Shown here in pieces: positions 43,001 to 64,000 of a DNA stretch of 64,000 bases. The translations under genes were made by a program, and so were the position numbers. A model generated the notes under the pieces. That model had not been told where the DNA came from. It searched no databases and saw only the letters and a list, made by a program, of their open reading frames with translations. Numbering within the stretch: the first letter of the stretch is position 1; every line of letters starts with the position of its first letter. Source of the stretch: Bythopirellula goksoeyrii (GTDB lineage Bacteria; Planctomycetota; Planctomycetia; Pirellulales; Lacipirellulaceae); NCBI RefSeq assembly GCF_008065115.1, contig NZ_CP042913.1, positions 3,693,658-3,757,657 on the forward strand, given 5' to 3'.

Positions 43001-44044
43001 CGGTGTGATTTCCTCGATTGTTTTCTTGACGTTCTTGATGGCTTGGAGCGGATTGAACCCATAGCGAACGACCACGATACCACCAACCGCTTCAGAACCT
43101 GCCTTATCCAACGCACCTCGCCTGAGCGCTGGGCCGAGGGCAACATTGGCGACATCCTTGATCGTGATCGGCACATTGTCCGTGACTTTGACCACTGTTT
43201 TTTCAATGTCTTCAACTTCCTCGATGAAACCCAGGCCGCGAATCACGTACTCCGCTTTATTAAGCTCGATGGTTCTTGCTCCCACATCAACGTTGGTCAT
43301 TTTCACCGATTGAAACACGTCACCCAACGAAACCTTGGCTGCTCGCATTGCATCAGGGTCCACGTCGATCTGGTATTCTCGAACAAAACCGCCAATCGAC
43401 GCAACTTCACTGATACCCTCGGACGCAGTCAAAGAGTAACGAACGTACCAATCCTGAGTTGTTCTTAATTCATCCAGGTCCCAGCCTCCGGTCGGGTTTC
43501 CATCGGGGTCTAGGCCTTCAAGCGTGTAGAGAAAAATTTGTCCCAGTGCGGTTGCGTCAGGTCCAAGCGCGGGCTGAACACCCTCAGGGAGAGTGCCCGA
43601 TGGCAAGCTGTTAAGTTTTTCTAAAACACGAGAGCGTGACCAATAGAATTCTGCATCTTCGTTGAAAATAATAAAGATTGTCGAGAAACCAAACAACGAA
43701 TAGCTACGGATGGTTTTGACTTCTGGAAGGCCAAGCAGGGCAACCGTTAGCGGGTAACCGATCTGATCTTCGACGTCTTGGGGCGAGCGTCCCATCCATT
43801 CCGTGAAAACAATTTGCTGATTCTCGCCAATGTCAGGAATCGCATCCACAGGGACCTGATCACGAGGCAGGTCGCCGACTTGCCAGTCAAACGGCGCGAC
43901 CATCACTCCCCAAGTTAACGTCGCAAGGACTAGCAAGCATACAACTAGCTTATTGTTGAGGCAAAACCAAATGATGCTGCCCAGCATCGTATGGCGACTA
44001 GCTTCAATATCAGGTGCGATCGTATTTTCGGTAGTATCAGTCAT
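40052..44044 (-). CDS. cusA: CusA/CzcA-family RND heavy-metal efflux pump (inner-membrane subunit)
   Basis: 1330 residues, about 280 longer than typical CusA. The N-terminus has FTEWMGRSPQDVEDQIGYPLTVALLGLPEVKTIRS and the core has VGKIGRAESPLDPAPISMIET, which in CusA is FGKTGRAET...PLEMIET, and ALSGIAIAIGTMVDMGIILCENIL. These support Cu(I)/Ag(I)-type export, powered by the proton gradient, in a complex with the adaptor and outer-membrane proteins encoded upstream. The extra length is in two insertions: an approximately 50-residue one near 375-425 (ANPDFESWVTHLRKLP) and a membrane-rich one near 590-780 with additional predicted helices (LLGFFTVFQRYLYEP among them). 89 bp separate it from cusB. 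The metal is inferred. Confidence 0.93.
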   Translation of the reverse strand: MTDTTENTIAPDIEASRHTMLGSIIWFCLNNKLVVCLLVLATLTWGVMVAPFDWQVGDLPRDQVPVDAIPDIGENQQIVFTEWMGRSPQDVEDQIGYPLTVALLGLPEVKTIRSYSLFGFSTIFIIFNEDAEFYWSRSRVLEKLNSLPSGTLPEGVQPALGPDATALGQIFLYTLEGLDPDGNPTGGWDLDELRTTQDWYVRYSLTASEGISEVASIGGFVREYQIDVDPDAMRAAKVSLGDVFQSVKMTNVDVGARTIELNKAEYVIRGLGFIEEVEDIEKTVVKVTDNVPITIKDVANVALGPALRRGALDKAGSEAVGGIVVVRYGFNPLQAIKNVKKTIEEITPGLPTKVVVDYTRTTKEQVDDYAVANNLEPISGANPDFESWVTHLRKLPREQWPNWITTSQIHVVPYYDRTGVIYETLGTLNSALAEEILVTIIVILVMVLHMRSSILISSLLPLAVLMCFIAMKTFGIDANIVALSGIAIAIGTMVDMGIILCENILKHLEEADPAEDRGHVIFRASNEVASAVLTAVSTTVVSFLPVFTMVAAEGKLFRPLAFTKTFALSASVIVALTIIPPAAHILMGGRIKSNTLRRFLMIALMCAGFLLSLFISWWVGAIVAALGFYKLLEERIPTDYQKYGPYAASAVAVVVVGLLLTDHWLPLGPDKGVLRNFLFVGILIGGLLGFFTVFQRYLYEPILRWCLAHKLLFLSLPTSFLLFGGCAWLGFDRIFSFIPGTASILGISDSTIRESRPWVAASSILPGLGKEFMPPLDEGSFLYMPTTMPHASIGEAMDVLQLQNKFLISIPEVESVVGKIGRAESPLDPAPISMIETFIAYKSEYKTDENGNRLKFRFNEEADEFARDAQGELIEDDGGRPFRQWRDEIKTPSDIWEQITEAADIPGTTSAPKLQPIAARIVMLQSGMRAPMGMKVKGPDLETIERVALQIEGLLKQVPTVQASAVIADRIVGKPYLEIDIDRDAIKRYGLHIRTVQDVIEVAIGGRRITTTVEGRERYPVRVRYARELRDEAESLGRILVPTAMGQQIPLEQLAKINYIRGPQVIKSEDTFLLGYVLFDMKVGNAEVDVVEDAQAFLQAKVESGELVLPAGVSYTFAGNYENQIRSQKTLMVVLPLALGVIFLILYFQFKSVITTSLVFSGIMIAWAGGFIMLWLYGTDWFLDFNVFGTNMRTLFQVHTINLSVAVWVGFLALFGIASDDGVVIASYLDESFRKDRIANGKHAREATVTAGMRRVRPCLMTTATTLLALIPVLTSTGRGSDIMVPMAIPSFGGMTIEIMTMLVVPVLYCSAMEWKLRLGINDPRFAENA

Positions 44045-44133
44045 CTAAGTCATATAGGGATATCAGTAAATCGATATACGCAATCCTCTAATCTTCATAG
44101 CTTGAGAGCTTCGTCTCCTTAGGACGACATTGC

Positions 44134-46512
44134 TCATCCATGATCGTGTCCCGAGTCTTTTACAGTCAATGGCTCAACTCGGTCTGCACACTTGAGCATT
44201 GACCCTCCATAGTATGGATTGCGAACTGTCTCATCAGCCTGAATCCAACTGGCTCCTCGCCCGTCGAAGATCATCGGACAATGCAACTCAAAGAGTTGGT
44301 GAGCGCCCGCGAAGCCGAACGTACGTTGCAGCGAAAGCATTTGCTCCGATAGTAATGCAAATGCCGACCGCAGACCGTCCAGATCGTTCGCCTTTGCCAA
44401 CTGTTCTGTAATCTTTATTAGGTCATTGTGCTCCGCCTTCCAGCGATTGTCCGTCGCACCTTCCAGCGATTGATTTTTGAGTGAACTAACGCTCTGCTCT
44501 AGACTTTCAACGGCCATCTTGGCTCCATTTGCATCGTCGGCAGCCAAGGCTTCACTGAGGGCCAGATAAGATGGAATGAGTTGGCTTAACTGCTGCCGAA
44601 AGGCATCGGGGACATCGAGTTTTATTTCTGCCATCTGATGACCGGTATCAAAGAGACCGAACATTTCCTGCAGACGTTCTGCATGTCGGTTCGTAATCTG
44701 AGTGACATGTTCCGCATCTTGCAAAGTTTGGACGTCGCCACCTTCAATGGAATCATTTCGTAAGAGCATGACGAACTCTTGTAATTGGTCCCCCATATCG
44801 CCTGGCAATTGCATTGCATTGACTGCTGCAATCAATTCACCAAGGGTTATGTATGACTCATGAATTCTATCCAAATCCTTCGACTTGACTGCTTGGGATA
44901 TGGCTTCGACACTTTCCATCGTGTGAAATAGCTTCGTCTTGAGTTCCGGCGGCAAGGTCATCCCAGAGCCACCTGACATTTTCATCTCGTCGCCGTTACC
45001 TCCCGCCTTCGTTTCACCCCCATGATTGTGACCTCCTGCTGAACCGCCCCCTTCAGGCGTCATCATGGAAGGCTTGGCCGAGATCTGCAGCGCGCTATCC
45101 AGCTTGAAGTTGCCGTTTGTTACTACAAGCTCACCTTCTTTGAGTCCGGATTTAACCAGATAGTAATCGCCTGCGCGTGGGCCGAGGACGATTTCGCGGC
45201 CTTCGTAAGTCGGCTCTTCGGTGTTGGGAACCTGGACATACACAATTGCACGGGTTCCAGTTAATAACGCCGCAGAAACTGGGATTACCAAGGGTTTAGC
45301 TGTATCGCTCGGTTCAGCCGTCACATAGCCAAGTGTTTCCGCTCTCACTAAGGGCATTCCACAAATGTCACAGTTGCCCGGTTCATCTTTAACTATTTCT
45401 GGATGCATCGGACCGATCCACTTACCAGCCAACGAAGGATCGATTACACGACCACCCGCAGCGACCTTAGAGCGCACGATGGCACTCACAAACATTTCCG
45501 GTTTCAATCGCCCGTCTTCGTTCGGAACATTCACTCGCACCTTCACCGTCCGCGTCATTTCATTCAGCACGGGATCAATGAAAGCGATCCGACCCTTAAA
45601 AACTTCACCGGGGTAAGCTTCCGTCGTAAACTCGACTTCTTGTCCATAGCGTAGCCAAGCGAGATCGGACTCATAGGCGTCCATCTGCATCCATAATTGA
45701 GTTAGATCAGCCAAAGTATAGATTCGATCTCCTGTGTTAACGCGATCACCTTCCTGCCTCAGCTTAGCAATCACGATGCCACTCACCGGCGAATAAATCG
45801 TAATGTGATCGATCGGTTTCCCCCGCTGTTCGATCTCTTGAATCTGTTTCTCAGTGATGCCGAGAAGACGCAGTTTTTCACGTGCCGATTTAACGAGATC
45901 AATGGGAGCGCTAAAGCGATTTGAGTTTTGACTTTCAGATCGATATTTCAGTGCCTGAATTAGCTCTTCTTGTGCTGAGTAGAGTTCCTCGCTATATATC
46001 GAAACCATATGATCCCCTTTGTGGACCTCTACGCCTGTAAAATCAACGAAAAGGCGATCCAGTCGTCCCGATACCCATGCAGTGACGTAGGCTAAACGAG
46101 TTTCGTCGTATTCAATCTTGCCTACCATCCTCACGTTTGCCGTCACGTACTGACGTGCGACTGGGACCGTTTGCAAATTCATCAGCTTCTTTATTTCGGA
46201 ACCAATCGAGATAGTACGAACCCCACCGGCAGATTTCTTGACGGGAACCAGGTCCATACCACAGATGGGGCACTTGCCGGGCTTATCGCTGCGTATTTGG
46301 GGATGCATCGAACAAGTCCACATGGTCGGGACCGAGGCCACTTCGGTGGTCAGCACATTACTTGTGCTGGTTTCACTTGGCGGTGTACTATCGAATATCC
46401 ACGCAGCCGAAAACCCAATCACAAGAAGTAATACTCCCTGAATCACCCACAGTTTGAAGCGATGCTTGCCGTAGAAGGTATTCCACCAGCGCATTTGCGT
46501 TGTGTTATCCAT
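44134..46512 (-). CDS. cusB: CusB-type periplasmic adaptor with two heavy-metal-binding fingers and DUF3347-like tail
   Basis: 792 residues. A single membrane anchor (about 19-37) is followed by the heavy-metal-binding motif MWTCSMHPQIRSDKPGKCPICGMDLVPVK in residues about 60-90, a hairpin/lipoyl/barrel adaptor body (about 95-370; YSEELYSAQEELIQALKY, PVSGIVIAKLRQEGDRV) and a second, inserted finger (WIGPMHPEIVKDE, CDICGMPLV) near 363-393. The C-terminal third includes a His/Gly-rich linker and a DUF3347-like domain with ELHCPMIFDGRGASWIQ and a HDHG end. It links the inner-membrane pump to the outer-membrane channel and presents metal to the pump. Two fingers plus DUF3347 is longer than E. coli CusB (about 400 residues). 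Confidence 0.92.
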   Translation of the reverse strand: MDNTTQMRWWNTFYGKHRFKLWVIQGVLLLVIGFSAAWIFDSTPPSETSTSNVLTTEVASVPTMWTCSMHPQIRSDKPGKCPICGMDLVPVKKSAGGVRTISIGSEIKKLMNLQTVPVARQYVTANVRMVGKIEYDETRLAYVTAWVSGRLDRLFVDFTGVEVHKGDHMVSIYSEELYSAQEELIQALKYRSESQNSNRFSAPIDLVKSAREKLRLLGITEKQIQEIEQRGKPIDHITIYSPVSGIVIAKLRQEGDRVNTGDRIYTLADLTQLWMQMDAYESDLAWLRYGQEVEFTTEAYPGEVFKGRIAFIDPVLNEMTRTVKVRVNVPNEDGRLKPEMFVSAIVRSKVAAGGRVIDPSLAGKWIGPMHPEIVKDEPGNCDICGMPLVRAETLGYVTAEPSDTAKPLVIPVSAALLTGTRAIVYVQVPNTEEPTYEGREIVLGPRAGDYYLVKSGLKEGELVVTNGNFKLDSALQISAKPSMMTPEGGGSAGGHNHGGETKAGGNGDEMKMSGGSGMTLPPELKTKLFHTMESVEAISQAVKSKDLDRIHESYITLGELIAAVNAMQLPGDMGDQLQEFVMLLRNDSIEGGDVQTLQDAEHVTQITNRHAERLQEMFGLFDTGHQMAEIKLDVPDAFRQQLSQLIPSYLALSEALAADDANGAKMAVESLEQSVSSLKNQSLEGATDNRWKAEHNDLIKITEQLAKANDLDGLRSAFALLSEQMLSLQRTFGFAGAHQLFELHCPMIFDGRGASWIQADETVRNPYYGGSMLKCADRVEPLTVKDSGHDHG

Positions 46513-46719
46513 AATTGACCTCTCTCATTGCAACAACTGACGACTGAAGGTAATTTACCACATCAATACTTTGGGGGTGGTTCGTTGACTACCACCATAC
46601 TCGCGCGTGAGGTCACAAAATAAAAAGCGAAGAACCTCTTTACGACGTTTTCAACTCCAGCTGTAGAGATGCACAGATCAGTTTGAACCCTATCGTATTG
46701 TGTCATATCTTTCCATAAG

Positions 46720-48327
46720 TCAGCAACCGACTGTTCGTTCTATCTGAGCAATCGTACCGGCGAGGCTTGCCTTCGCGCGAGCAAGCTGAAGCCTGTGGGT
46801 TAACAATTCTTCATACACATCGACAACCCCAAAGAAATCGCCGCGCTCGGCACGATAATCTGCTGTAGCGAGTTCCAGATTCTGTTCTGTACGCGGAATC
46901 AGTGTCTGCTCATAAAGTGCTATTTGTTCGGCCAAGGCATCAGCCGCCGCAACGAGACGACGGAGCATACCCCGCAATTCATCCCACCCCGCCTCATATC
47001 GCGCAGCAGTGCTCTTAAACGTATGCTTCGCCTCCTCCCTGCCGGAATCGATTTTTTCTCGCCAGATTGGTAGCGTAATCGCCACATTAATTCCGAGACT
47101 GTCTCGGCCATTGGCGACGGGGCTTAAGGCATCATGGTCGTCGCTAATCTGTGCCCACATAAGACCAAATTCAAAGTCAGGATAGTTCTTGAGCCTCGCA
47201 AGCTTGCGACGGTCACGATCACGAGACTTTTCTGCAACAAGGCTCATAAGATTTGGATTACAGCGGTGGCTTGATTCAACTAGCTCATCCAGTGCTAGTG
47301 GAATACGCTGGGTGTTCGGCTCTTCCAACTTTGTAAATTGGAAATCTAAGGGATTTCTGACTAACGTGCCCAGATCAGCTTTCGCTTCCTCTTTACTCCG
47401 GCGGAGTGAGATAAGCTGATCTTCAAGTTTTTCAGTTTCCAGCTCGGCTCTTACGACGTCTTGCTGACTCCCACCTGCACGATAACGCGCTTCGGATACT
47501 TTAATAAGATTCCGTGCCAAAGCTTGATTTGCTTCGACAATACTTGTTGCCTCTTCATAAAGCCAAAGCTCGTAGTATGCAAGCTGCACAGCCTCTTTAA
47601 TCTCCTGCACCGAATTGGCGAGCTCCGCCTCAGCCATTACTAATTCATGTGAGGCAATTGCCTCCTGAGTGTAAAGCTTGCCTGGCCACGGCACACCTTG
47701 CTTGAGCGATAACTGACTGCTAATGCGTCCACTTGCCGTCTGCGGCGATTGCTCACGAACGGGCCATAGACTATTGGCTAAAACGGGATCCGGTAATGCA
47801 CGTGCCTGAGGAATTCGGTTGGCAGCAGCAGCCACGCGTTGTCGAGCAGCAATAATGCTAGGATGCGAGTCGATTGCGGCCGCAATTATTTCGTGAAGCA
47901 CAAGCGGTGCGTCACTCTGGGTCGTATGAGCGAACACAACGTTAGCCGAACTTTTGGATTGTTCGAGAACGTGATCTGAGTCGCCTTCGGCTGACACTGT
48001 GGAGTTTGTTTCTTTGATCTGGATGACTTGTTTAGGAAGAAATGTTTCCGATAGGACAGTCCTCCCCTCACCCGACACAGCCGATAGAGTTCTTACATCG
48101 AATCTCTCCACCTCCGGGCCATTACTCTCAGGCAATCCAATTTCTCTCTGGGAGACGCAGCTTGCAGCACTGAGTAGAGCTAGGGTAAGAACAGTGACGA
48201 CAAGTCGAACAAATAGTTTGTGCGTAACATGACTCACACCTGCGGTGGGGTACGCCAGGACACATGATCCCCAAGATAACGGAGTATTACCTGTGCTTTT
48301 GTGTGATCGAATCTGATGATCGGTCAT
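46720..48327 (-). CDS. TolC/CusC-family outer-membrane efflux lipoprotein
   Basis: 535 residues from ATG at 48327, supported by AGGA seven bases upstream; another ATG at 48345 would add six. A hydrophobic signal (LFVRLVVTVLTLALLSAAS) ends in the lipobox SAASC near residue 57. The mature part (about 145-530) has the paired outer-membrane efflux repeats of the TolC family: HPSIIAARQRVAAAANRIPQA, LAYYELWLYEEATSIVEAN and ADYRAERGDFFGVVDVYEELL. It would form the outer-membrane tunnel for CusB and CusA, whose genes follow on the same strand after a 207-bp gap. That gap could contain a second promoter. The long unmatched N-terminus may be partly non-coding. Confidence 0.87.
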   Translation of the reverse strand: MTDHQIRSHKSTGNTPLSWGSCVLAYPTAGVSHVTHKLFVRLVVTVLTLALLSAASCVSQREIGLPESNGPEVERFDVRTLSAVSGEGRTVLSETFLPKQVIQIKETNSTVSAEGDSDHVLEQSKSSANVVFAHTTQSDAPLVLHEIIAAAIDSHPSIIAARQRVAAAANRIPQARALPDPVLANSLWPVREQSPQTASGRISSQLSLKQGVPWPGKLYTQEAIASHELVMAEAELANSVQEIKEAVQLAYYELWLYEEATSIVEANQALARNLIKVSEARYRAGGSQQDVVRAELETEKLEDQLISLRRSKEEAKADLGTLVRNPLDFQFTKLEEPNTQRIPLALDELVESSHRCNPNLMSLVAEKSRDRDRRKLARLKNYPDFEFGLMWAQISDDHDALSPVANGRDSLGINVAITLPIWREKIDSGREEAKHTFKSTAARYEAGWDELRGMLRRLVAAADALAEQIALYEQTLIPRTEQNLELATADYRAERGDFFGVVDVYEELLTHRLQLARAKASLAGTIAQIERTVGC

Positions 48328-48888
48328 GAACTCATCCTGACACAAAATTCACTACGCACCCAGTCAACTGAGTTTACGTAACAGCGGGGCTAGCGTTACA
48401 AAGGGGCCGCCAGTTCAAACACGAAACATGTTTTCCTCGCATGGCAAATGCCACATATCCATAACACAATATGCATTAGATTAGCCAGCCTCTCACAAAG
48501 TGGTATCCTTCTCCGAATTTGAACCGAATCGTATCTCATGTCAACTTCGCGAGAAAGTTCATTGTTCTTTGACTATACACTAGTCTCTTACGTTATTAGA
48601 TGCTTCGGATGTGGCATTTCTTCATCCCAGTGGCCGAAAATTCTCGTCCTTGCTGCAGCCCTCGCTGTGATGTAGACATCCTTGCCGTTTAGGAGTGAAC
48701 AGCTGCGAGATGGTTAATTAAACGTTTTTGACTCGGCGGACCACTACGTTCATTCTCAACGAAAATATGACGGTACAAAACTTTTCTTCTTGCGCTTAGA
48801 TGCAAGCCTCGCATTCATAGATTACTCATCAACACGAGCAATAGGATGTTCTGTAATCAGAATGCTCTTTGTGGCATTTACAATAAAA
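48328..48888. other. Intergenic region upstream of the efflux operon
   Basis: 561 bp without a gene I can support. A 46-codon frame at 48539-48679 on the plus strand lacks any motif. The region must contain the efflux-operon promoter and the terminator of the BON gene. No inverted repeat stands out. Confidence 0.4.
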
Positions 48889-49399: not shown

Positions 49400-50236
49400 T
49401 CACCCTTTGACAGGAAATACTCCCTTAAAGTGAGCAATAAATTCCGTCACCTCGTCGAGATCCGTTGCCCCGATAATAGTGATGAATCGCTGACCCTCTT
49501 TCCAGGTAGCGGCAAGCCGGTTACCCATTTGAGTGACACTCGTAGGAATGTCATGACAAAGGCATTCAACCGTGGGTCTGTCACCAAACCAAACTGGTTG
49601 ATCAATCGCGTGCTCGAAAATGGCAATTGATTGGCCCTCCTTGTTTTTGCATACAATTTGGGCGCAGGTGCAACAAGGCATGTCCAGCAAATATACTTGG
49701 TCCATTCTATATTCAGGTGGTAATTTGTTGGCTGCTACCGGTTCATAGCCGAGGACGTCTGTGACTTCCTGAAGTGTGCTTTGCCGGCCATTGTAGTTGG
49801 CCAAAAGAATCTGTTGTGCTTCCTCAGGCCGCTGCTCGAATTCCTCCAGGAAGTGAGAGAAATTCATGGCTAGATGATTATGTTCAGAATGCGAAGACCA
49901 ATTGAGATACGCTAGAACTCCTATTCCAAAGGCGATTAGCAGTGAAGCAGCCAACACCAGTCGTTGTTGCGGAAGATAATCGGGCAGATGTCGTGCGATT
50001 CTTTTCCAAGACGTTGTTGGTGTATCGAGTTTCGACTGCAATTCTGCCCATAATTGCTCCGGCACCGGTGGATCAATTAGTCGTCTGGATAAGCCCGACA
50101 ACCGCACGTAAGATGCCAGCTCTTCTGTACAGGTAGGGCACTTGGCCAGGTGAGCCGCAACTTGCGCAGCATCCTCTTGTGACAGCTCGCTGTCGTGATA
50201 TGCGGAAAGTCGATCATAGACCTTAGAGCAATTCAA
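49400..50236 (-). CDS. Zinc anti-sigma factor with membrane anchor and Cys-rich extracytoplasmic domain
   Basis: 278 residues. I chose the TTG at 50236, one base after the sigma-factor stop (TAA-C-TTG), because the frame then starts LNCSKVYDRLSAYHDSEL with Cys3, and with His29, Cys33 and Cys36 gives the zinc anti-sigma signature Cys-x25-His-x3-Cys-x2-Cys; GGGAG nine bases upstream supports it. A helix near 90-108 (VLAASLLIAFGIGVLAYL) anchors the protein. The extracytoplasmic part contains MPCCTCAQIVCKNKEG and VECLCHD, a cluster of six or seven cysteines well suited to binding a soft metal. It should hold its sigma factor at the membrane and release it when metal arrives. Signal proposed, not shown. 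Confidence 0.85.
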   Translation of the reverse strand: MNCSKVYDRLSAYHDSELSQEDAAQVAAHLAKCPTCTEELASYVRLSGLSRRLIDPPVPEQLWAELQSKLDTPTTSWKRIARHLPDYLPQQRLVLAASLLIAFGIGVLAYLNWSSHSEHNHLAMNFSHFLEEFEQRPEEAQQILLANYNGRQSTLQEVTDVLGYEPVAANKLPPEYRMDQVYLLDMPCCTCAQIVCKNKEGQSIAIFEHAIDQPVWFGDRPTVECLCHDIPTSVTQMGNRLAATWKEGQRFITIIGATDLDEVTEFIAHFKGVFPVKG

Positions 50237-50237
50237 G

Positions 50238-50846
50238 TTATGGCTCCCAACCCAGTTGAGCAAGATGAAGTTTGAGTTCCTGACGAGCACGATTTAAGCG
50301 GGAGCCGACCGTTCCCTCAGGAATCTCTAGCGCATCCGCTATCTCTCGATACGACAACCCTTCCACTTCGCGGAGCAGAAAGGCAGATCTCAATTCTGGA
50401 TCCAACTGCCCGAGCGCCCGCTCTAATAATTCTTTGTCATCCATATTCTCGCGGCTAGTTACAGAACGGTCCATCGGTTCCTGTTCCAGAGGCTCAAATT
50501 GCCGTCGCTTCCTCTTGCGAAGGTGCTGCAAGGCTTCGTTCACAGCCACTCGATACATCCAGGTGCCAATTTGGGATTTGCCAGAAAACTGGCTAATCTT
50601 ACGAAACGCCTGAAGAAACACTTGCTGAGTGACATCTGCGGCATCCTGAATGCCTACCATACGGACCACCAAGCGATACACATTCTGATGCGTTACGTCG
50701 TAAAGGCGACGTTGCGCAATTGGATCACCTTGTTGGCAAGCATCCGCGACTGCTGTAGCTTCTTGCATATCAGCCCACGCGAGCATTCCTTCATCGCTTT
50801 TAGATGCGGAAAGAGGTTCAGTTCTTCGCGTGGTGGCAAATTTCAT
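50238..50846 (-). CDS. ECF-family RNA polymerase sigma factor
   Basis: 202 residues from ATG at 50846, with GGAGA eight bases upstream. Region 2 lies near residues 35-105 (AQRRLYDVTHQNVYRLVVRMVG, VTQQVFLQAFRKISQFSG, TWMYRVAVNEALQHLRKRKRR) and region 4 near 140-195 (LGQLDPELRSAFLLREVEGLSYREIADALEIPEGTVGSRLNRARQEL). This is the ECF layout with no region 3. Its gene is followed directly by a zinc anti-sigma factor. It probably drives its own operon and the surrounding metal genes. The name of the subgroup cannot be given by eye; functionally it is comparable to CnrH-type metal-responsive systems, by inference. Confidence 0.92.
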   Translation of the reverse strand: MKFATTRRTEPLSASKSDEGMLAWADMQEATAVADACQQGDPIAQRRLYDVTHQNVYRLVVRMVGIQDAADVTQQVFLQAFRKISQFSGKSQIGTWMYRVAVNEALQHLRKRKRRQFEPLEQEPMDRSVTSRENMDDKELLERALGQLDPELRSAFLLREVEGLSYREIADALEIPEGTVGSRLNRARQELKLHLAQLGWEP

Positions 50847-54610: not shown

Positions 54611-55582
54611 ATGGAAACGTTTGCGAAAAACATCGGCATTTCCCGCACAATAGTTTACTTGGTCCTGAGCTTGCCCATAGTCGGCAATATGGAGACAACG
54701 AGCAATGCCAAGCAATCGGAAGAAGATCATCCATCTCACCAATCCCATTCTGCAAATGAGTCGTCATCGCCAGAGGATGATGCATCTCTTTTGGAGCAGT
54801 TTCAAAAACTACAAGGCAAGATTGCCGCCCTCGAAGCAGCCCTAAAGCAAAACCACCAGGCGACGTCACCTCCCGCCCAAGGTGGAATGTCGATGGGCAA
54901 TATGCAAAACAATTCCGAGCCGAACATGGCGATGATGCAAAAGGGACAAATGGCAACGATGTCAGACAGACAGTCGATGCAATCAGGCCAAGGGATGGGC
55001 ATGGGAAACATGGGCAAGGGAATGTCAGGAATGGACGCGGGAGGCATGGGTATGATGTCGGGCATGGGTTCGATGCAGTCCGGCCAAGGCATGGGTGGCA
55101 TGGGTATGGGCGGCATGGGCATGATGGGAGGCGAAGGGATGGCAATGATGGGTCGCATGCCTGGGATGGGGCAGATGCAAATGCCTTCGGCTCTTCCCGG
55201 TTTTCCTGGTGCTTCGCACATCTACCATGTCGGGTCATCAAACTTTTTTCTCGACCACATGCAGCACATCGAACCGTCGCAAGACCAGCAAACTAAACTG
55301 AATCAAATCAAGCAACAGACCTTAATGAGTCAAGCCACCTACGACCGTTCGATTGCTGAGGCAGAGCAAGATTTGTGGGGGCTTACCAGCGCGGAATTTC
55401 CCAGTGCGGCGGAGATTGAGGCAAAAATCCGCGAGATTGAGAAACTGCAGAGTGACAAGCGGATCGCCTTCATCCGCGCCGTCGGAGAAGCGGCCCAAGT
55501 GCTATCAGACGAGCAACGACAAGCTTTGGTTGGGGTATTGCCGTTAGAACATACGACGACGGGCAACACTAACCAGCACTAA
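54611..55582 (+). CDS. Secreted Met/Gly-rich protein with Spy/CpxP-like C-terminus
   Basis: 323 residues, ribosome site GAGAGGA. Residues about 1-30 are a signal peptide or anchor. A His/Ser patch (HPSHQSHSANESSS) leads to a coiled coil (about 58-83) and then a long Met/Gly/Gln repeat (about 90-200) made of units such as GMGMGNMGKGM, GMGGMGMGGMGMMGG and GMGQMQM, a composition that binds Cu(I) or Ag(I) through methionine sulphur. The end (about 225-310) is helical, with QQTKLNQIKQQTLMSQATYDR and DKRIAFIRAVGEAAQVLSDEQRQAL, like periplasmic Spy/CpxP proteins. It likely chaperones or buffers soft metal in the periplasm. The repetitive region should be checked for length errors. Confidence 0.78.
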   Translation: METFAKNIGISRTIVYLVLSLPIVGNMETTSNAKQSEEDHPSHQSHSANESSSPEDDASLLEQFQKLQGKIAALEAALKQNHQATSPPAQGGMSMGNMQNNSEPNMAMMQKGQMATMSDRQSMQSGQGMGMGNMGKGMSGMDAGGMGMMSGMGSMQSGQGMGGMGMGGMGMMGGEGMAMMGRMPGMGQMQMPSALPGFPGASHIYHVGSSNFFLDHMQHIEPSQDQQTKLNQIKQQTLMSQATYDRSIAEAEQDLWGLTSAEFPSAAEIEAKIREIEKLQSDKRIAFIRAVGEAAQVLSDEQRQALVGVLPLEHTTTGNTNQH

Positions 55583-55718: not shown

Positions 55719-56009
55719 ATGTCGAAAGTAAAAGCAAAACTAACTCAGTTCAGTTGCCATGCACCTGATGCCAGCGCGGTGTTTCTGGCTGGCACATTCA
55801 ATGACTGGCAAACCGATGCGACTCCATTGGCAAACGTCGACCAAGGCAATTGGAAAGTGCAAATGGAGTTGGCACCTGGTCACTACGAATACAAGTTCTT
55901 TGTGGACGGCCAGTGGTGCTGCGAGCCGGGTTGTCAGCCCTTAGAGGCATGTCCGAAATGCGTATCGAATTCCTTCGGCACGATGAACCGATTCATGGAC
56001 ATCGAATAA
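55719..56009 (+). CDS. Stand-alone CBM48-like (isoamylase N-terminal-type) protein with Cys-rich loop
   Basis: 96 residues, ribosome site AAGGAG. The fold follows the glycogen-binding CBM48/isoamylase early set type: FSCHAPDASAVFLAGTFNDWQ, then W-KVQMELAPGHYEYKFFVDGQW. After VDGQW, where relatives have a loop with one or two prolines, this protein reads CCEPGCQPLEACPKC and ends VSNSFGTMNRFMDI. The five cysteines in 15 residues could bind metal. Proteins of this shape occur in other metal islands, from my memory and not checked. No signal peptide, so cytosolic. Role unknown; glycogen binding is not obvious here. Confidence 0.82.
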   Translation: MSKVKAKLTQFSCHAPDASAVFLAGTFNDWQTDATPLANVDQGNWKVQMELAPGHYEYKFFVDGQWCCEPGCQPLEACPKCVSNSFGTMNRFMDIE

Positions 56010-59137: not shown

Positions 59138-59149
59138 GTGCAGCCACTT

Positions 59150-61135
59150 ATGATATTTAAGACAGCTATCATTGTGTTGCTTGCCGCTAGCTTGGCGTCT
59201 TCTAGCAACGCTCAAATCTCCCCCGAAGAACACGCAAGTCATCACCCTGGTCAATCCCAAGGAGGTGAGCCGCCTGATGCTCAGAGCAGTGGAACACCAA
59301 ATCCTGGTCCCGCAGGTGGAATGGGCGGCCCAGGTGGGATGATGGGTGGTGGCATGGGCGGAATGATGGAGGGCATGATGGAGAAGATGGGTGCGCCCAA
59401 GCCCAAGCAGATCTATCCCCAGCTAATGGCGTTGCCCGATTTGCCGATGGAACAGCGGGCTGCCATCGAGCAGGAAGCACACCTGCGAATGATCGAAGGC
59501 ACAAAACTTCTAGCTCAGGGACTTGACGAGCTGACTCGTGCAGCGCCGACGAACCACTTCGATGCGATGCAATCGGCCACCGCCAAAATGCGCGAGGGCC
59601 TGGCACAGTTTGAAAGTGGTCTGGCTGCCCATCGAGCGATAGCCGAAGGGAAAGCACCGCAAAACGTGGCTCTGCAATGGTTTAAGCGTGAAATGAACCT
59701 GCTTCCACCACCGGGTACGCAACACACTGGCTTTCGGCTGTGGGGTATGACACTTTTTCACACCCTGCTGATGGTGGTGTTAGTTCTCTTCGCCGTTGCC
59801 ATGATTGCCATGTATTTTTTCAAAATGCGCCGTGCATCGGCGTTACTGGAGAAGCTGGCCATGGCTGAAACAGCCAATGGACCTGCAACGGAGATGGCTT
59901 TGCCAGCTAACAGCCCGCCGTCAAATGCATCGACGGCCTCCAGCTCTTCAACAAATGCGAAAGATGCTGCTAAATCGTCTGCGGCGATGGCCGCCGATTG
60001 TTGCGATAATTCGGAAGAGACTTGTCCCAGCAACGAGAAAGCAACAGATCGATCAGATATTTCGGAAGGCCTGCTGCCAATCCGCAAGAAGAAACTTTGT
60101 CGGTTACGGGTTGCCCGCATCGACCAGGAAACGCCCGACGTAAAAACTTTTCGGCTTGTCGCTTGTCATGGTGGCGGCATCCCTTTCAGCTATCTTCCCG
60201 GTCAGTTTCTCACCTTGAAACTACCTGTCGGCGAGAAACCGATCCGAAGGAGCTACACCATCTCTTCGTCACCAACACAAGGATACTATTGTGAAATTAC
60301 GGTCAAGCGAGAGGAGTATGGCACTGGCTCGCGTTTTCTTCATGATCAGGTCAAGGTGGGTGACACTCTCGAAGTGCAAGCGCCAAGTGGAAAATTCGTA
60401 TTCACGGGTAAAGAATCGGAAGACATTGTCTTGATCGGCGGTGGCGTGGGTATCACACCGATGATGAGCGTGACCCGCGCCCTAACAGACATGGCATGGA
60501 ACGGCGACATCTACTTTATCGTGGCCTGCCATGATCCTGAGCATTTCATCTTTGAATCTAAGCTAAGAAGGCTTCAGGAACGGCACGATAATCTACATAT
60601 CTTTGTCGCAATGAGTCGCATCAAAGAAGACATCAATGGCTATCGCAAAGCTCGTCTCTCGCGAGAACTGCTAACCGAATGGGTCCCTTCCATCGCGGCC
60701 AAACGGATCCACATCTGTGGACCTCCAGCAATGATGGATGCGGTCAAGGAAATGCTAATGGAACTCGATGTGCCGCCAGAGAACATCCATAGCGAGAACT
60801 TTGGTGGCGAGCAAAAGCCACGTGTGCGAGCTGAGCAACGGGCGAAAATTGCCGAGACGGACATCGCGGAGACCGGCGGTACGGTTACTTTCAGTAAGTC
60901 AGCCAAGTCGACGGAGTTCCAGCCGGATGAGACCATCTTGGAGGCATCCGAACGAGTCGGCGTTGACATCGACTATTCATGCCGAATCGGAACATGCGGG
61001 GTTTGTATTGTCAAACTTCTGTCAGGAAAAGTATCGATGGAAGTCGAGGACGGACTAGAGCCAGAAGAAAAGAAATTGGGAATGATTCTTTCGTGTCAAG
61101 CGAAGTCCACAGGCAGCGTGGCCGTGGAGGCGTGA
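59150..61135 (+). CDS. Membrane-anchored flavin/2Fe-2S reductase with Met-rich periplasmic head
   Basis: 661 residues from ATG at 59150; GTG at 59138 would add four. Signal peptide 1-22. A Met/Gly-rich stretch (GMGGPGGMMGGGMGGMMEGMM, about 55-80 in pieces) and a helical periplasmic part (about 85-190, MEQRAAIEQEAHL, QSATAKMREGLAQFESGL) precede a membrane helix near 204-226 (FHTLLMVVLVLFAVAMIAMYFF). The cytosolic part starts with a Cys-containing linker (CCDNSEETC), then an FAD domain (RSYTISSSP near 367) and NAD(P)H domain (GGGVGITPMMS, HICGPPAMMDAV). The end is a plant-type 2Fe-2S domain with Cys611, Cys616, Cys619 and Cys649 (C-x4-C-x2-C-x29-C). Probably passes electrons from NAD(P)H across to the cytochromes encoded next. 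Confidence 0.86.
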   Translation: MIFKTAIIVLLAASLASSSNAQISPEEHASHHPGQSQGGEPPDAQSSGTPNPGPAGGMGGPGGMMGGGMGGMMEGMMEKMGAPKPKQIYPQLMALPDLPMEQRAAIEQEAHLRMIEGTKLLAQGLDELTRAAPTNHFDAMQSATAKMREGLAQFESGLAAHRAIAEGKAPQNVALQWFKREMNLLPPPGTQHTGFRLWGMTLFHTLLMVVLVLFAVAMIAMYFFKMRRASALLEKLAMAETANGPATEMALPANSPPSNASTASSSSTNAKDAAKSSAAMAADCCDNSEETCPSNEKATDRSDISEGLLPIRKKKLCRLRVARIDQETPDVKTFRLVACHGGGIPFSYLPGQFLTLKLPVGEKPIRRSYTISSSPTQGYYCEITVKREEYGTGSRFLHDQVKVGDTLEVQAPSGKFVFTGKESEDIVLIGGGVGITPMMSVTRALTDMAWNGDIYFIVACHDPEHFIFESKLRRLQERHDNLHIFVAMSRIKEDINGYRKARLSRELLTEWVPSIAAKRIHICGPPAMMDAVKEMLMELDVPPENIHSENFGGEQKPRVRAEQRAKIAETDIAETGGTVTFSKSAKSTEFQPDETILEASERVGVDIDYSCRIGTCGVCIVKLLSGKVSMEVEDGLEPEEKKLGMILSCQAKSTGSVAVEA

Positions 61136-61253
61136 CATGCGGGAGGGTGAACGGCTGATATTGAACTGCTAAGAACGTAGAACATGAATCAGTATTGGAA
61201 CGGCTAGAATGCACGGATTGATCGTTTCCTTAACCTAGATCGAGGTGAAATGA

Positions 61254-61469
61254 ATGAATCACACAATGCGAATGTTGCTGGGCTGCATAATCCCGCTATT
61301 GCTTCTTTTCTTGTTGCCACTATTCGGTCTAGGTGAGGGAGTATCTTTGTATGTTGCCATCGTACTAATGTTTGCCTGTCATTTGTTCATGGTCGGTGGT
61401 GACCATCGGCGAAACGTCCACAAGAACAACCACAAGTCAAATCAAGGAGATCATCATGCAAACCATTAG
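61254..61469 (+). CDS. Small DUF2933-like membrane protein with His-rich tail
   Basis: 71 residues. Two hydrophobic helices (about 6-25, LLGCIIPLLLLFLLPLFG; about 31-47, LYVAIVLMFACHLFMVGG) are followed by a short tail HRRNVHKNNHKSNQGDHHANH with eight His. The pattern MLLGCIIPLLLLFLLPLFG is that of DUF2933 proteins found in copper/silver islands. It overlaps the next gene by 14 bp. The tail could hold metal. Function unknown. Confidence 0.75.
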   Translation: MNHTMRMLLGCIIPLLLLFLLPLFGLGEGVSLYVAIVLMFACHLFMVGGDHRRNVHKNNHKSNQGDHHANH

Positions 61470-61770
61470 CATCAAGCAACTTGGTTTTGCTCTCGGAGCT
61501 ACTGCCGCACTCCTGTATTTCGGCTGTGTCTTTGTCATGCTGACTGTCCCCCATGACATGACCATTCGCTTTTTCAACAGTCTCTTGCACGGCTGGGATG
61601 TTACCTCCATTATGCGTTGGGACATGCCGTGGTGGGAGGCAATCACCGGCGTGCTGGAAACCTTTATCTTGGCCTGGCTGGTTGGAGCCGTTGTGGCTCT
61701 CTTTTACAACTTGGGAAACAATTCACGACACTGTGAGACATCTGCTCGCACATCAGAGGTAAACCAATGA
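61456..61770 (+). CDS. DUF5676-like inner-membrane protein
   Basis: 104 residues, strong ribosome site AAGGAGATCATC-ATG, which decides this start over an earlier one at 61372. Two or three hydrophobic helices: about 8-32 (LGFALGATAALLYFGCVFVML), and about 65-90 (ITGVLETFILAWLVGAVVALFYNLG), with a conserved-looking WDMPWWEA between them. It resembles DUF5676 proteins that co-occur with DUF2933 in metal islands. Start lies within the previous gene. Function unknown. Confidence 0.75.
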   Translation: MQTISIKQLGFALGATAALLYFGCVFVMLTVPHDMTIRFFNSLLHGWDVTSIMRWDMPWWEAITGVLETFILAWLVGAVVALFYNLGNNSRHCETSARTSEVNQ

Positions 61771-61837
61771 GTCAACAGCAGCAAGGGTCTCCCCCACATT
61801 GTTGATTTCACTTGTATCAACAGCTTCTATGTGAGTA

Positions 61838-62614
61838 ATGTTTATGAAGGAACGCGAGCGAATCTTGGTCACTGCCTTGGTGGTATTGATGCTCATCACC
61901 TGGCTCGGATTTCCGTTTCATGAGTCACCGCGATTCGCAGGAAGCTTGTGGGGCGGTGTGTTCGGTGTGACAGGCGCGCTGCTCATGCTTGCTCCGCTTG
62001 CTTACATGATCGTCAAACGCGTCAAGCCGCTCAAGCAATACACCACGAAGTTTGTCTCGAAGCGAACATTACTGGCGTGGCATATTTACGCAGGAGTACT
62101 TGGGCCGATCCTGGTTGTAATCCATAGTGGACACAAATACGAAAGCCCGTTAGGGATCGCCTTGACGGCCATGACACTGCTAGTCGTGTTAAGCGGGTTT
62201 GTGGGACGCTATTTGATGCAGCAATTCTCTCAAGAGATCCGCGAGAAAAAAACGCTGCTCGATGGGTTAAAAGCCATCTACGACCAGATCAGAACAAAGT
62301 TAGTCACCCAGCACCAACCGGCTCTGGCCATTCAACCGTTTACCGGTTTCTTTTCACGTCTCACAGCGAGTTTTTTTCTGAGCGAGAATAGCGCGGACTT
62401 CTCCAGCTCTGCTGAGACTCCATCGCCCCGCGAGATGGTGCGGCTGGCAGAATCGATTGCCGATGTCGAATACGCAATCGACACCCATGGAAAATTCAAA
62501 ACTTGGTTCGGAAAATGGCTCAAGTTTCACATTGTCATATCGTTCATACTATACGGCCTACTGATACTACATGTCTGGACAGCGATTCACTTCGGGCTGA
62601 GGTGGGTTAGATGA
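61838..62614 (+). CDS. Ferric-reductase-like di-heme cytochrome b membrane protein
   Basis: 258 residues. Hydrophobic helices lie near 10-28, 38-58, 80-98, 105-125 and 228-250. His82 and His96 (WHIYAGVLGPILVVIH) and His231 and His245 (FHIVISFILYGLLILH) form two pairs, each with exactly 13 residues between, the spacing that ligates two stacked b hemes in ferric reductases and NADPH oxidases. A loop of about 100 residues between the fifth and last helix has no recognised motif. Its stop overlaps the next start by 4 bp (ATGA), coupling it to a multiheme cytochrome c. With the flavin reductase upstream it can form an electron path across the membrane. Confidence 0.78.
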   Translation: MFMKERERILVTALVVLMLITWLGFPFHESPRFAGSLWGGVFGVTGALLMLAPLAYMIVKRVKPLKQYTTKFVSKRTLLAWHIYAGVLGPILVVIHSGHKYESPLGIALTAMTLLVVLSGFVGRYLMQQFSQEIREKKTLLDGLKAIYDQIRTKLVTQHQPALAIQPFTGFFSRLTASFFLSENSADFSSSAETPSPREMVRLAESIADVEYAIDTHGKFKTWFGKWLKFHIVISFILYGLLILHVWTAIHFGLRWVR

Positions 62615-63393
62615 GCCTCAAATGGACACTCATCGGTATACCTGTCAGTGCTGGCGTAATCCTAGCCTTCTGGTTAGCCACACCGGGAGAATCCACTTTC
62701 AAGCAACCGGCTGCCTGGCAACGAATGGCCGAGCCGGGTGCGCTATCGGCTGCTCACGCACATCTAGAAAGCAATTGTGCAGCATGTCACACATCCGTCA
62801 AAGGAGTTGAGACTGCCAATTGCATCATTTGTCATGCCAACAATGAATCGATACTACAACGACAGCCGACCTCTTTTCATGCCAATATCAACAGTTGCGT
62901 GGAGTGTCATCTGGAGCATCAGGGCAGAGCGAGCCGTCCTACAAAGATGGATCACTCCGTATTGGCAGAGATCGGTTTGCGTCAACTGAAGGACGACGCT
63001 GATAGTCAGATCGAGTTGCTGCGCCTCCAATTTATCATTGGCATATACCACGGTTCATCCCCTCATGCCCTCATCACGTCCGAGGAAGCGGTACTGGACT
63101 GCGCGACTTGCCACTCTAATGACGACCGCCATTTCCAACTGTTTGGACAAGACTGCGCCCAGTGTCACGCCACGGATCGCTGGACCATCCCCGAATTCAG
63201 GCATCCATCTCCTAACTCACTGGACTGCGCCCAATGCCATCAAGCACCTCCCAGCCATTACATGATGCACTTCAAGATGATCTCGGCTCGTGTAGCTGGC
63301 AAGCCGCATGCTCGCGTCGATCAATGTTTTCAATGCCACCAAACCACGTCGTGGAACGACATTCTGGGGGCAGGCTGGTATAAGCACCACTGA
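62611..63393 (+). CDS. Membrane-anchored seven-heme cytochrome c
   Basis: 260 residues. A single N-terminal hydrophobic segment (about 5-24, VSAGVILAFWLAT) anchors the protein; the rest should be periplasmic. Seven heme-binding CxxCH motifs are visible: CAACH, CIICH, CVECH, CATCH, CAQCH, CAQCH and CFQCH. Further His (AHAHLESN, FHANINS, HYMMHFKM, HARVDQ) can serve as distal ligands. It resembles class III/NapC-type multiheme cytochromes and would take electrons from the coupled cytochrome b, and pass them on to a periplasmic acceptor or reductase. Alternatively it is part of an electron-export path. Acceptor unknown. Confidence 0.88.
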   Translation: MSLKWTLIGIPVSAGVILAFWLATPGESTFKQPAAWQRMAEPGALSAAHAHLESNCAACHTSVKGVETANCIICHANNESILQRQPTSFHANINSCVECHLEHQGRASRPTKMDHSVLAEIGLRQLKDDADSQIELLRLQFIIGIYHGSSPHALITSEEAVLDCATCHSNDDRHFQLFGQDCAQCHATDRWTIPEFRHPSPNSLDCAQCHQAPPSHYMMHFKMISARVAGKPHARVDQCFQCHQTTSWNDILGAGWYKHH

Positions 63394-63462: not shown

Positions 63463-64000
63463 ATGTTGAAGAGCAATGCTTTCGCAAGCCAAACTGACTC
63501 TTACAAGTCTTCGCAATCAAAGGTGTTTAGTAGGTCGATTCGCACTCAATTACTTTTCGCCGTCAACCTACCTCTCGTGGTGCTGGTCACGGTTTTTCTC
63601 GTGTACGATTACAACCGCATGATGGGCGAACGAGTTATAGATATGCACCTAGCACTGGAGGAAGAAGCTAAAACTTTGCTTCCGGCCATTACCCGACTAA
63701 GTAAAGGCGGCACGCATGACGTACAACAATACATCGACAGCGTATGCGAACAAATGCAAACCGAGAAGTCACCCGGGCATCATATTGCTGTTCAGACTCC
63801 ATCTGAAACTCTTCAGGCGACTTCGCACGGACGCGAATCGCCGGAAATGCTGGCCGCCCTTCATCGTGCGGGCGATTCATCCACCGGTAGAGCATCGATC
63901 AGCAATCAGGAGTTCGTTGTGGGCACCGCCAAGTCGAACAAATTCATTGTTTACGTTGCTGAGAGGCTCTCAAATGTCAAGCACCGGGTCCGCCAAGCAG
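63463..64000 (+). CDS. Sensor histidine-kinase-like protein, N-terminal part only
   Basis: From ATG at 63463 the frame stays open to the window edge, giving 179 residues. It has a short cytosolic start, one membrane helix near 32-50 (LLFAVNLPLVVLVTVFLVY) and an extracytoplasmic sensor-like segment with ALEEEAKTLLPAITRLSKGG and VQQYIDSVCEQMQTEKSPGHH, layout typical of the periplasmic input domain of histidine kinases. The kinase core is outside the window, so the call is an inference from layout; a methyl-accepting or other one-helix sensor is possible. Last in the redox gene group, it may control it. Confidence 0.6.
   Translation, partial: MLKSNAFASQTDSYKSSQSKVFSRSIRTQLLFAVNLPLVVLVTVFLVYDYNRMMGERVIDMHLALEEEAKTLLPAITRLSKGGTHDVQQYIDSVCEQMQTEKSPGHHIAVQTPSETLQATSHGRESPEMLAALHRAGDSSTGRASISNQEFVVGTAKSNKFIVYVAERLSNVKHRVRQA

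Follow-up and report, generated by a model that had tools for sequence, protein, structure and literature searches.

Close to the end of a 64,000-nucleotide stretch of the Bythopirellula goksoeyrii genome (contig NZ_CP042913.1, positions 3,693,658 to 3,757,657 of the forward strand; the whole of this stretch is called the window below) lie genes for a membrane-anchored NAD(P)H reductase, a cytochrome-b-like transmembrane protein and a c-type cytochrome with seven heme-binding motifs, in this order (Table 1). Their arrangement raises the question of whether the three proteins work as a unit and, if they do, from which donor to which acceptor they would carry electrons. The joint conservation of the three genes across many genomes identifies them as a real module, referred to here as the triad. 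Judged from sequence and genomic setting, the triad probably constitutes a transmembrane conduit that passes electrons from NAD(P)H to the periplasm and has a role in metal stress. The host genome is a single contig of 6.47 Mb, and the nearest relatives of the locus belong to the Planctomycetota.

Conservation and spread of the three genes

A search of 392 genomes of the window's phylum with the cytochrome b as query produced matches at E 1e-5 or better in 40 genomes. Ten of these, the window's own copy counted, stand well apart (E 1e-61 or better, identity at least 47%), and all ten have the reductase upstream and a seven-heme cytochrome downstream of the cytochrome b; the 30 genomes with weak matches (E 5e-13 to 1e-5) were excluded as members. 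A species-level scan of one genome each for 84,980 species gave 125 relatives of the cytochrome b, the best 80 of which, together with three loci from the phylum search, make up the set of 83 loci analysed here (L numbers denote these and other fetched relative loci, except that L002 is the stretch that continues the host genome past the window end). The cytochrome b is present in all 83 by construction, having served as the query. Many of the loci are short contigs, with 46 being longer than 18 kb (the long loci), and many of the hosts are metagenome bins, in which contigs may be misplaced.

The order and strand of the reductase core and the cytochrome b are kept in 83/83 loci; the reductase is truncated by the contig end in L037, and its head and redox core lie in separate frames in L041. 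The cytochrome c follows the cytochrome b in 80/83 loci, always in the same order and on the same strand, and the three loci without it end within or just past the cytochrome b. The gap between reductase and cytochrome b is at most 60 nucleotides in 73/83 loci and exceeds 500 nucleotides in four, the window's included, while 62 of the 80 loci have the matches to cytochrome b and cytochrome c no more than 150 nucleotides apart; in the window the ATG of the cytochrome c overlaps the stop codon of the cytochrome b. Distance matrices of the three proteins, calculated for 75 loci, correlate with r = 0.73, 0.62 and 0.68, compared with a maximum of 0.14 in 500 permutations. The single electron chain that the initial annotation had proposed for this region thus withstands the comparison of gene order and co-occurrence across genomes that it had called for.

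By title, the hosts belong to about ten phyla in all and include Planctomycetota, Pseudomonadota, Bacteroidota, Nitrospirota, Nitrospinota, Verrucomicrobiota, Acidobacteriota, Hydrogenedentota, Omnitrophota, Chloroflexota and Myxococcales. Because the Planctomycetota require 10 changes on the tree, horizontal transfer of the triad between lineages is suggested. A tblastn search with the cytochrome b found relatives on 52 plasmid records, all at less than 60% identity, with 26 of the plasmids predicted to be conjugative, and the regions of 13 were examined. In 12/13 an annotated flavin/[2Fe-2S] reductase precedes the cytochrome b and a c-type cytochrome or an unnamed protein follows it; on the Methylocystis rosea plasmid the gene table, which is incomplete, lists no gene at the place of the cytochrome c. 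Pfam confirms the cytochrome c in Sphingobium SYK-6 and in one copy of Bradyrhizobium BTAi1. The cytochrome b is labelled `hypothetical protein' in the majority of 40 listed plasmid records.

Two plasmids have further features near the triad. In one triad copy on pBBta01 of Bradyrhizobium BTAi1 (L129:10244-11998) the reductase gene is shortened and its start is overlapped by an IS3 transposase gene, and another copy on that plasmid carries a reductase annotated at full length. On the Methylophaga pinxianii plasmid a cytochrome c maturation cluster (ccm) lies a few kilobases past the triad (L131:16751-23977).

Predicted electron path across the membrane

The reductase comprises 665 residues from a GTG start (a later ATG lies at 59150) and contains FAD_binding_6, NAD_binding_1 and Fer2 domains, all of which exceed the Pfam cut-off and place it in the superfamily of FAD/[2Fe-2S] NAD(P)H reductases. 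Its best NCBIfam scores are with GbcB, PRK10684 (Hcr) and PaaE, each below its equivalog cut-off. A hydrophobic N-terminus (residues 4-22) is followed by a stretch with 9 Met and 18 Gly within residues 25-90 and by a single transmembrane segment at 210-228. Since basic residues come after this segment, the positive-inside rule would put the redox domains on the cytoplasmic and the Met-rich head on the periplasmic side. The anchored flavin/[2Fe-2S] reductase with a Met-rich head of the initial annotation is borne out.

The cytochrome b (258 residues) has five hydrophobic segments and two H-x13-H pairs, His82/His96 and His231/His245, as had been noted earlier. At least two such pairs occur in 43/43 aligned members, the window's own counted, and all four histidines are invariant among them. 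If the N-terminus is inside, His82 and His231 would face the cytoplasmic side and His96 and His245 the periplasmic side, with the C-terminus outside. The resemblance to ferric reductases that had been claimed for this protein holds for the histidine spacing and not for family membership. Even at a threshold of E 1, no Pfam family matches the window's protein. PF01794 matches 13/43 members, and the best of these matches (E 0.00058) lies under the 28-bit cut-off, because in a comparable scan an E of 0.0004 corresponds to 20.9 bits; among five more divergent members, three match at 16.5 bits or less and two show no match. Membership of PF01794 is not supported: no profile match exceeds the cut-off as far as the scores can be compared, and there are five segments and a separate reductase gene, where that family has six helices and often a fused flavin/NAD domain. 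The cut-off of PF01292 (cytochrome b561) is not reached either, with 2/43 members matching (best E 0.014) and one divergent member at E 0.0013 (19 bits, cut-off 30.1), and DUF4405 is likewise weak in other members, under its cut-off as far as the scores are comparable. A search of PDB sequences returned four matches to unrelated proteins at E 0.49 or worse. A fold search of the PDB with a model of the protein (mean predicted local distance difference test score, pLDDT, 83.4) gave nothing significant (best E 0.43), with ABC transporters ranked first and cytochrome b561 entries at E 1.1-1.8, and therefore no fold is claimed.

Some relatives of the cytochrome b differ in architecture. A subgroup carries a C-terminal DUF547 extension, which would be periplasmic (4/4 long genes tested; L066:10001-11626, also L054, L061 and L063). 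Distant cytochrome-b-like relatives adjoin large c-type cytochromes with up to 23 CxxCH per frame (L042:8969-15915; L043, L044, L045, L046); in L042 a gene for a [4Fe-4S] plus pyridine-nucleotide oxidoreductase lies upstream and one for a 555-residue protein without a Pfam match downstream, and sets of this type are possibly a second, larger electron line that perhaps reaches the cell surface. Besides its triad copy, the L041 contig encodes a fused Ferric_reduct-FAD-NAD protein (NOX-like; 999-2336) flanked on both sides by Met-rich proteins, as though the host combined two types of transmembrane reductase.

The cytochrome c (260 residues) has a hydrophobic segment at 6-24 and CxxCH motifs at residues 56, 71, 96, 164, 182, 206 and 239, which confirms the coupled seven-heme protein of the initial annotation. 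Matches above cut-off to PF02085, PF14537 and PF14522 assign it to the class III/c7 cytochromes, although no relative was found among PDB sequences at E 0.01. Seven motifs are present in 78/80 matched stretches, the other two having 3 and 6. Seven further histidines (49, 90, 103, 115, 174, 198 and 216) are invariant and would just suffice as second ligands for seven hemes. A conserved SHYMxHFxM stretch and a terminal KHH contribute additional His and Met residues with no obvious heme role. The mean pLDDT of the model of this cytochrome is 65.3.

Together, the invariant histidines of the cytochrome b and the sufficient number of histidine ligands in the cytochrome c make the route from NAD(P)H through FAD, [2Fe-2S] and two hemes b to the seven hemes c appear chemically complete. 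NAD(P)H would hand a hydride to the FAD in the cytoplasmic part of the reductase, from which single electrons would pass through the [2Fe-2S] cluster to the cytoplasmic-side heme of the cytochrome b (His82/His231), on to the periplasmic-side heme (His96/His245) and finally to the anchored heptaheme cytochrome in the periplasm. The occupancy and pairing of the hemes, the direction of flow and the preference for NADPH are deduced from the sequences; a direction from NAD(P)H to the periplasm is consistent with how the domains are ordered, with the predicted topology and with the dehydrogenases encoded nearby.

Copper islands and the terminal acceptor

The setting of the triad points to metals. 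At least one of four copper markers (P1B-ATPase, multicopper oxidase, HME-RND pump, CopB) is found in 49/83 loci, and in 35/46 long loci compared with 1 of 20 control stretches of 20 kb drawn from two genomes of the window's phylum (Fisher p 4.9e-8), in agreement with the copper-type island proposed initially. Per 83 loci the counts are 26 for the P1B-ATPase, 31 for the multicopper oxidase, 10 for HME-RND and 14 for CopB; a Csp query matched nothing in the comparison of the 83 loci with the controls. The NCBIfam cut-off for copper P-type ATPases is exceeded in 2/2 representatives tested and that for copper-resistance multicopper oxidases in 1/3. `Copper' appears in an annotated product name in 9/13 plasmid regions. 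In 4/13 a gene for a heavy-metal-responsive regulator lies on the triad's strand no more than 2 kb upstream; in SYK-6 this regulator is a MerR protein by Pfam. The plasmids of Sphingobium SYK-6 and Caulobacter FWC26 share an order of heavy-metal-responsive regulator, small genes, triad, DUF1622, four-helix copper-binding protein, aldehyde and alcohol dehydrogenases, copper-resistance oxidase and CopB, with an RND efflux system in the same stretch. The Methylophaga, Pontibacter and Rhizorhabdus regions have no `copper' product, yet contain heavy-metal or RND genes.

A second recurrent group of neighbours could supply reductant. Glutamate dehydrogenase is found in 26/83 loci and 0/20 controls, and lies within 100 nucleotides upstream of the reductase in 9/21 loci of its cluster of open reading frames; the single copy compared with NCBIfam is NADP-specific (NF006929). 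In Parahaliea (L070) the triad is preceded by glucose-6-phosphate dehydrogenase, 6-phosphogluconate dehydrogenase, a small open reading frame, alcohol dehydrogenase and glutamate dehydrogenase. Any of six NAD(P)H-capable dehydrogenase families is present in 34/83 loci, 1/20 controls and 7/13 plasmid regions, the families other than glutamate dehydrogenase being individually rare (2-3/83 each). These neighbours can be read as a line supplying NAD(P)H or, alternatively, as general stress metabolism riding on the same islands. A stand-alone glycogen-binding module recurs as well (17/83 loci, 0/20 controls). Taken further, and with some scepticism, these genes might be components of a plasmid-borne metal-defence module with its own redox power, in which sugar stores or glutamate would feed the island dehydrogenases (glycogen-binding module, GlgP, the two pentose phosphate enzymes, NADP-specific glutamate dehydrogenase and alcohol dehydrogenase) and the NADPH-driven three-part reductase would supply copper or silver in the periplasm with electrons by way of its seven hemes, adding resistance by reduction to pumping and Cu(I) oxidation.

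The copper-related neighbours, the Met-rich partners and the exporters of Cu(I) type favour metal ions as the acceptor. On this basis the conduit would travel between bacteria inside metal islands and act mainly under copper or silver stress; its likeliest end reaction would be the reduction of periplasmic Cu(II), or of another oxidized metal or partner, and exporters of Cu(I) and Met-rich binding proteins encoded in the same islands would then take over the reduced copper. Reduction of Cu(II) as the physiological terminal step is a conjecture that must be considered doubtful, and several observations weigh against it or against the copper link behind it. The multicopper oxidase in 31/83 loci is of the kind thought to oxidize Cu(I), a function opposed to that of a Cu(II) reductase. 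HME-RND alone is not enriched (10/83 against 1/20, the single control match to any marker being an RND pump), and pumps of this type also export metals other than copper. The control stretches represent only two genomes. Eleven of the 46 long loci have no copper marker, all of them planctomycete by title or kinship. As L033 and L047, to which the window's copy is most closely related, are among the eleven, the link is weakest near the window, although two heavy-metal RND systems belong to the island of the window itself. The Bradyrhizobium BTAi1 stretch has no copper product. Glutamate dehydrogenases specific for NADP are usually biosynthetic, and would then use up NADPH instead of supplying it. 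Finally, on plasmid pAM1A3 of Alteromonas macleodii the triad stands directly before a [NiFe] hydrogenase cluster.

The last of these points and the multicopper oxidase also favour a different acceptor, namely a periplasmic redox enzyme (a multicopper oxidase reducing O2, a hydrogenase or another oxidoreductase) that the triad would serve as a general electron line, with the islands keeping the enzyme supplied. The multicopper oxidase is absent from all 20 controls, and in Alteromonas AltDE the published gene order is orf1/cyt/orf2/hynD/hupH/hynS/hynL (PMC3102683). However, 52/83 loci have no multicopper oxidase in the fetched stretch (many being short contigs), and the hydrogenase small subunit is found in 0/83 loci at E 1e-25 and in 1/13 plasmid regions. 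Orf1 and Cyt are moreover described as dispensable for maximal HynSL activity in Escherichia coli (PMC3102683, citing its reference 16), a result that concerns maturation and is compatible with a role in electron transfer. A redox enzyme as the partner is a minority possibility. Strain HOT1A3, the host of pAM1A3, tolerates levels of zinc, mercury and copper that inhibit other A. macleodii strains (PMC4781885), and the plasmid also bears many other resistance genes.

The hydrogenase linkage on pAM1A3 would also suit a flow in the opposite direction, in which periplasmic donors (H2 through the hydrogenase, or others) reduce cytoplasmic NAD(P)+, such wires being reversible in principle. This appears very improbable given that the recurrent cytoplasmic neighbours can produce NAD(P)H themselves and that Cu(I) is too weak a donor to NAD(P)+.

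Of the neighbours tested, a Met-rich protein recurs most often (51/83 loci, 0/20 controls). Together with the Met-rich head of the reductase itself, it could indicate a periplasmic repair or redox-homeostasis line resembling MsrPQ, which during copper stress would keep thiols or Met-rich metal binders in the reduced state. MsrQ, too, spans the membrane with two hemes and takes its electrons from a flavin reductase (MsrQ-like proteins: PMC8238504). No MsrP-like molybdoenzyme was noticed among the neighbour clusters identified, which are a part of the total and were not searched with a dedicated profile. A seven-heme cytochrome is not known as a component of MsrPQ. A repair function is considered improbable. 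A conduit to the periplasm with a role in metal stress is retained as the preferred description of the triad.

Relation to known systems and neighbouring genes

The reductase and the cytochrome c belong to known superfamilies. The reductase has the domain order of Hcr/PaaE-type reductases (FAD, NAD, C-terminal [2Fe-2S]), to which it adds the hydrophobic N-terminus, the transmembrane anchor and the Met-rich head. The cytochrome c shares the class III/c7 families with the periplasmic cytochromes c3/c7 of Desulfovibrio and Geobacter, from which it differs in its seven hemes, its membrane anchor and its own reductase and cytochrome b; Desulfovibrio cytochrome c3 has been described as a metal reductase (PMC6357080). 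The triad as a whole resembles MsrPQ with Fre in combining a cytosolic NAD(P)H flavoprotein, a two-heme transmembrane protein and a periplasmic acceptor, but the latter system has neither an anchored [2Fe-2S] reductase with a Met-rich head nor a multiheme cytochrome c, and the triad cytochrome b falls below the PF01794 cut-off in the members scanned. Ferric reductases, NADPH oxidases and STEAP proteins likewise pass electrons from NAD(P)H through FAD to two stacked hemes with His-x13-His spacing, and some reduce metal; in the triad, by contrast, the reductase and heme proteins are separate, five and not six helices are predicted and the electrons would go on to a heptaheme cytochrome.

Flavinylation-linked extracytosolic electron transfer is likewise modular and leads across the membrane from donors in the cytosol to acceptors outside it, with NapH-, MsrQ-, PepSY-, DsbD- and NQR/RNF-like apparatuses (PMC8238504). 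None of these five corresponds to the triad, and the main text of that paper contains neither the word copper nor the word multiheme. From the gene order, orf1 and cyt of the Alteromonas HynSL locus would be the triad cytochrome b and heptaheme cytochrome; there the hydrogenase genes lie immediately downstream, and the available text of the description assigns no role to Orf1 and Cyt (PMC3102683). Among the papers listed by searches in an open-access library, none was recognized as naming or describing the triad, in line with the initial remark that no named system has exactly this set. As the window's cytochrome b matches no Pfam family, the PDB searches gave nothing significant for it and no paper listed was recognized as describing the triad, the triad is judged to be new in part: the cytochrome b, the heptaheme outlet and the link to copper islands are the novel elements on the known theme of NAD(P)H-dependent transmembrane reductases.

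Bacterial defence against copper and silver is usually described in terms of export, sequestration and Cu(I) oxidation. A mobile, co-inherited line from NAD(P)H to the periplasm, recurring in copper islands across many phyla, would extend this defence by an active redox branch and would predict that Cu(II) or Ag(I) in the periplasm is reduced at the expense of NADPH. The triad also offers a testable function for a conserved cytochrome-b-like protein that is mostly annotated as hypothetical in the plasmid records listed.

Table 1. Features of the window discussed in the text, with positions counted from its first nucleotide.
Feature	Position	Strand	Basis and occurrence
Membrane-anchored NAD(P)H-FAD-[2Fe-2S] reductase with Met-rich, predicted periplasmic head (core part 1)	59138..61135	+	Pfam/NCBIfam; transmembrane segment 210-228; core in 83/83 loci
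Cytochrome-b-like transmembrane protein with two H-x13-H pairs (core part 2)	61838..62614	+	Motifs, topology, alignment; 83/83 loci as query
Seven-CxxCH c-type cytochrome with N-terminal membrane anchor (core part 3)	62611..63393	+	Pfam, motifs; 80/83 loci
71-residue small membrane protein between reductase and cytochrome b	61254..61469	+	Translation; no Pfam match at E 0.01
DUF5676 protein with two transmembrane segments, accessory	61456..61770	+	PF18926, E 3.2e-22; tblastn match in 11/83 loci
HAMP-SpoIIE (PP2C) phosphatase, neighbour	63463..64000, runs past window end	+	6/83 loci
Met-rich protein, probably exported	54611..55582	+	Weak Metal_resist/LTXXQ similarity under cut-off; relatives in 51/83 loci
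Stand-alone glycogen-binding module (AMPK1_CBM/CBM48) near Met-rich protein	55719..56009	+	PF16561, E 2.3e-14
ECF sigma factor and zinc-finger anti-sigma factor	49400..50846	-	Sigma in 9/83 and anti-sigma in 5/83 loci; 0/20 controls
CusA/CzcA-type heavy-metal RND efflux system (permease, adaptor, outer-membrane channel)	40052..48345	-	TIGR00914 and TIGR01730 above cut-off; OEP

Two further genes of the region were considered as parts of the unit and ruled out. The initial annotation had ended its NAD(P)H-to-periplasm chain with a metal sensor; while the co-conserved chain itself stands and its proposed direction is plausible, this fourth part is not supported, because the gene from 63463 encodes a HAMP and SpoIIE-type phosphatase that is not recognizable as a metal sensor and is confined to a small minority of the loci. 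The complete protein, of 496 residues, is encoded in L002 (5121-6611). The DUF5676 protein is excluded from the core by its occurrence in 11/83 loci.

Among the remaining neighbours, the ECF sigma and anti-sigma factors are possible regulators of the island. A second heavy-metal RND system follows past the window end (L002 7963-15702), so that the triad sits between the two, and a CsoR-type metal-sensitive repressor (PF02583) is encoded at the far end of L002 (17441-17767).

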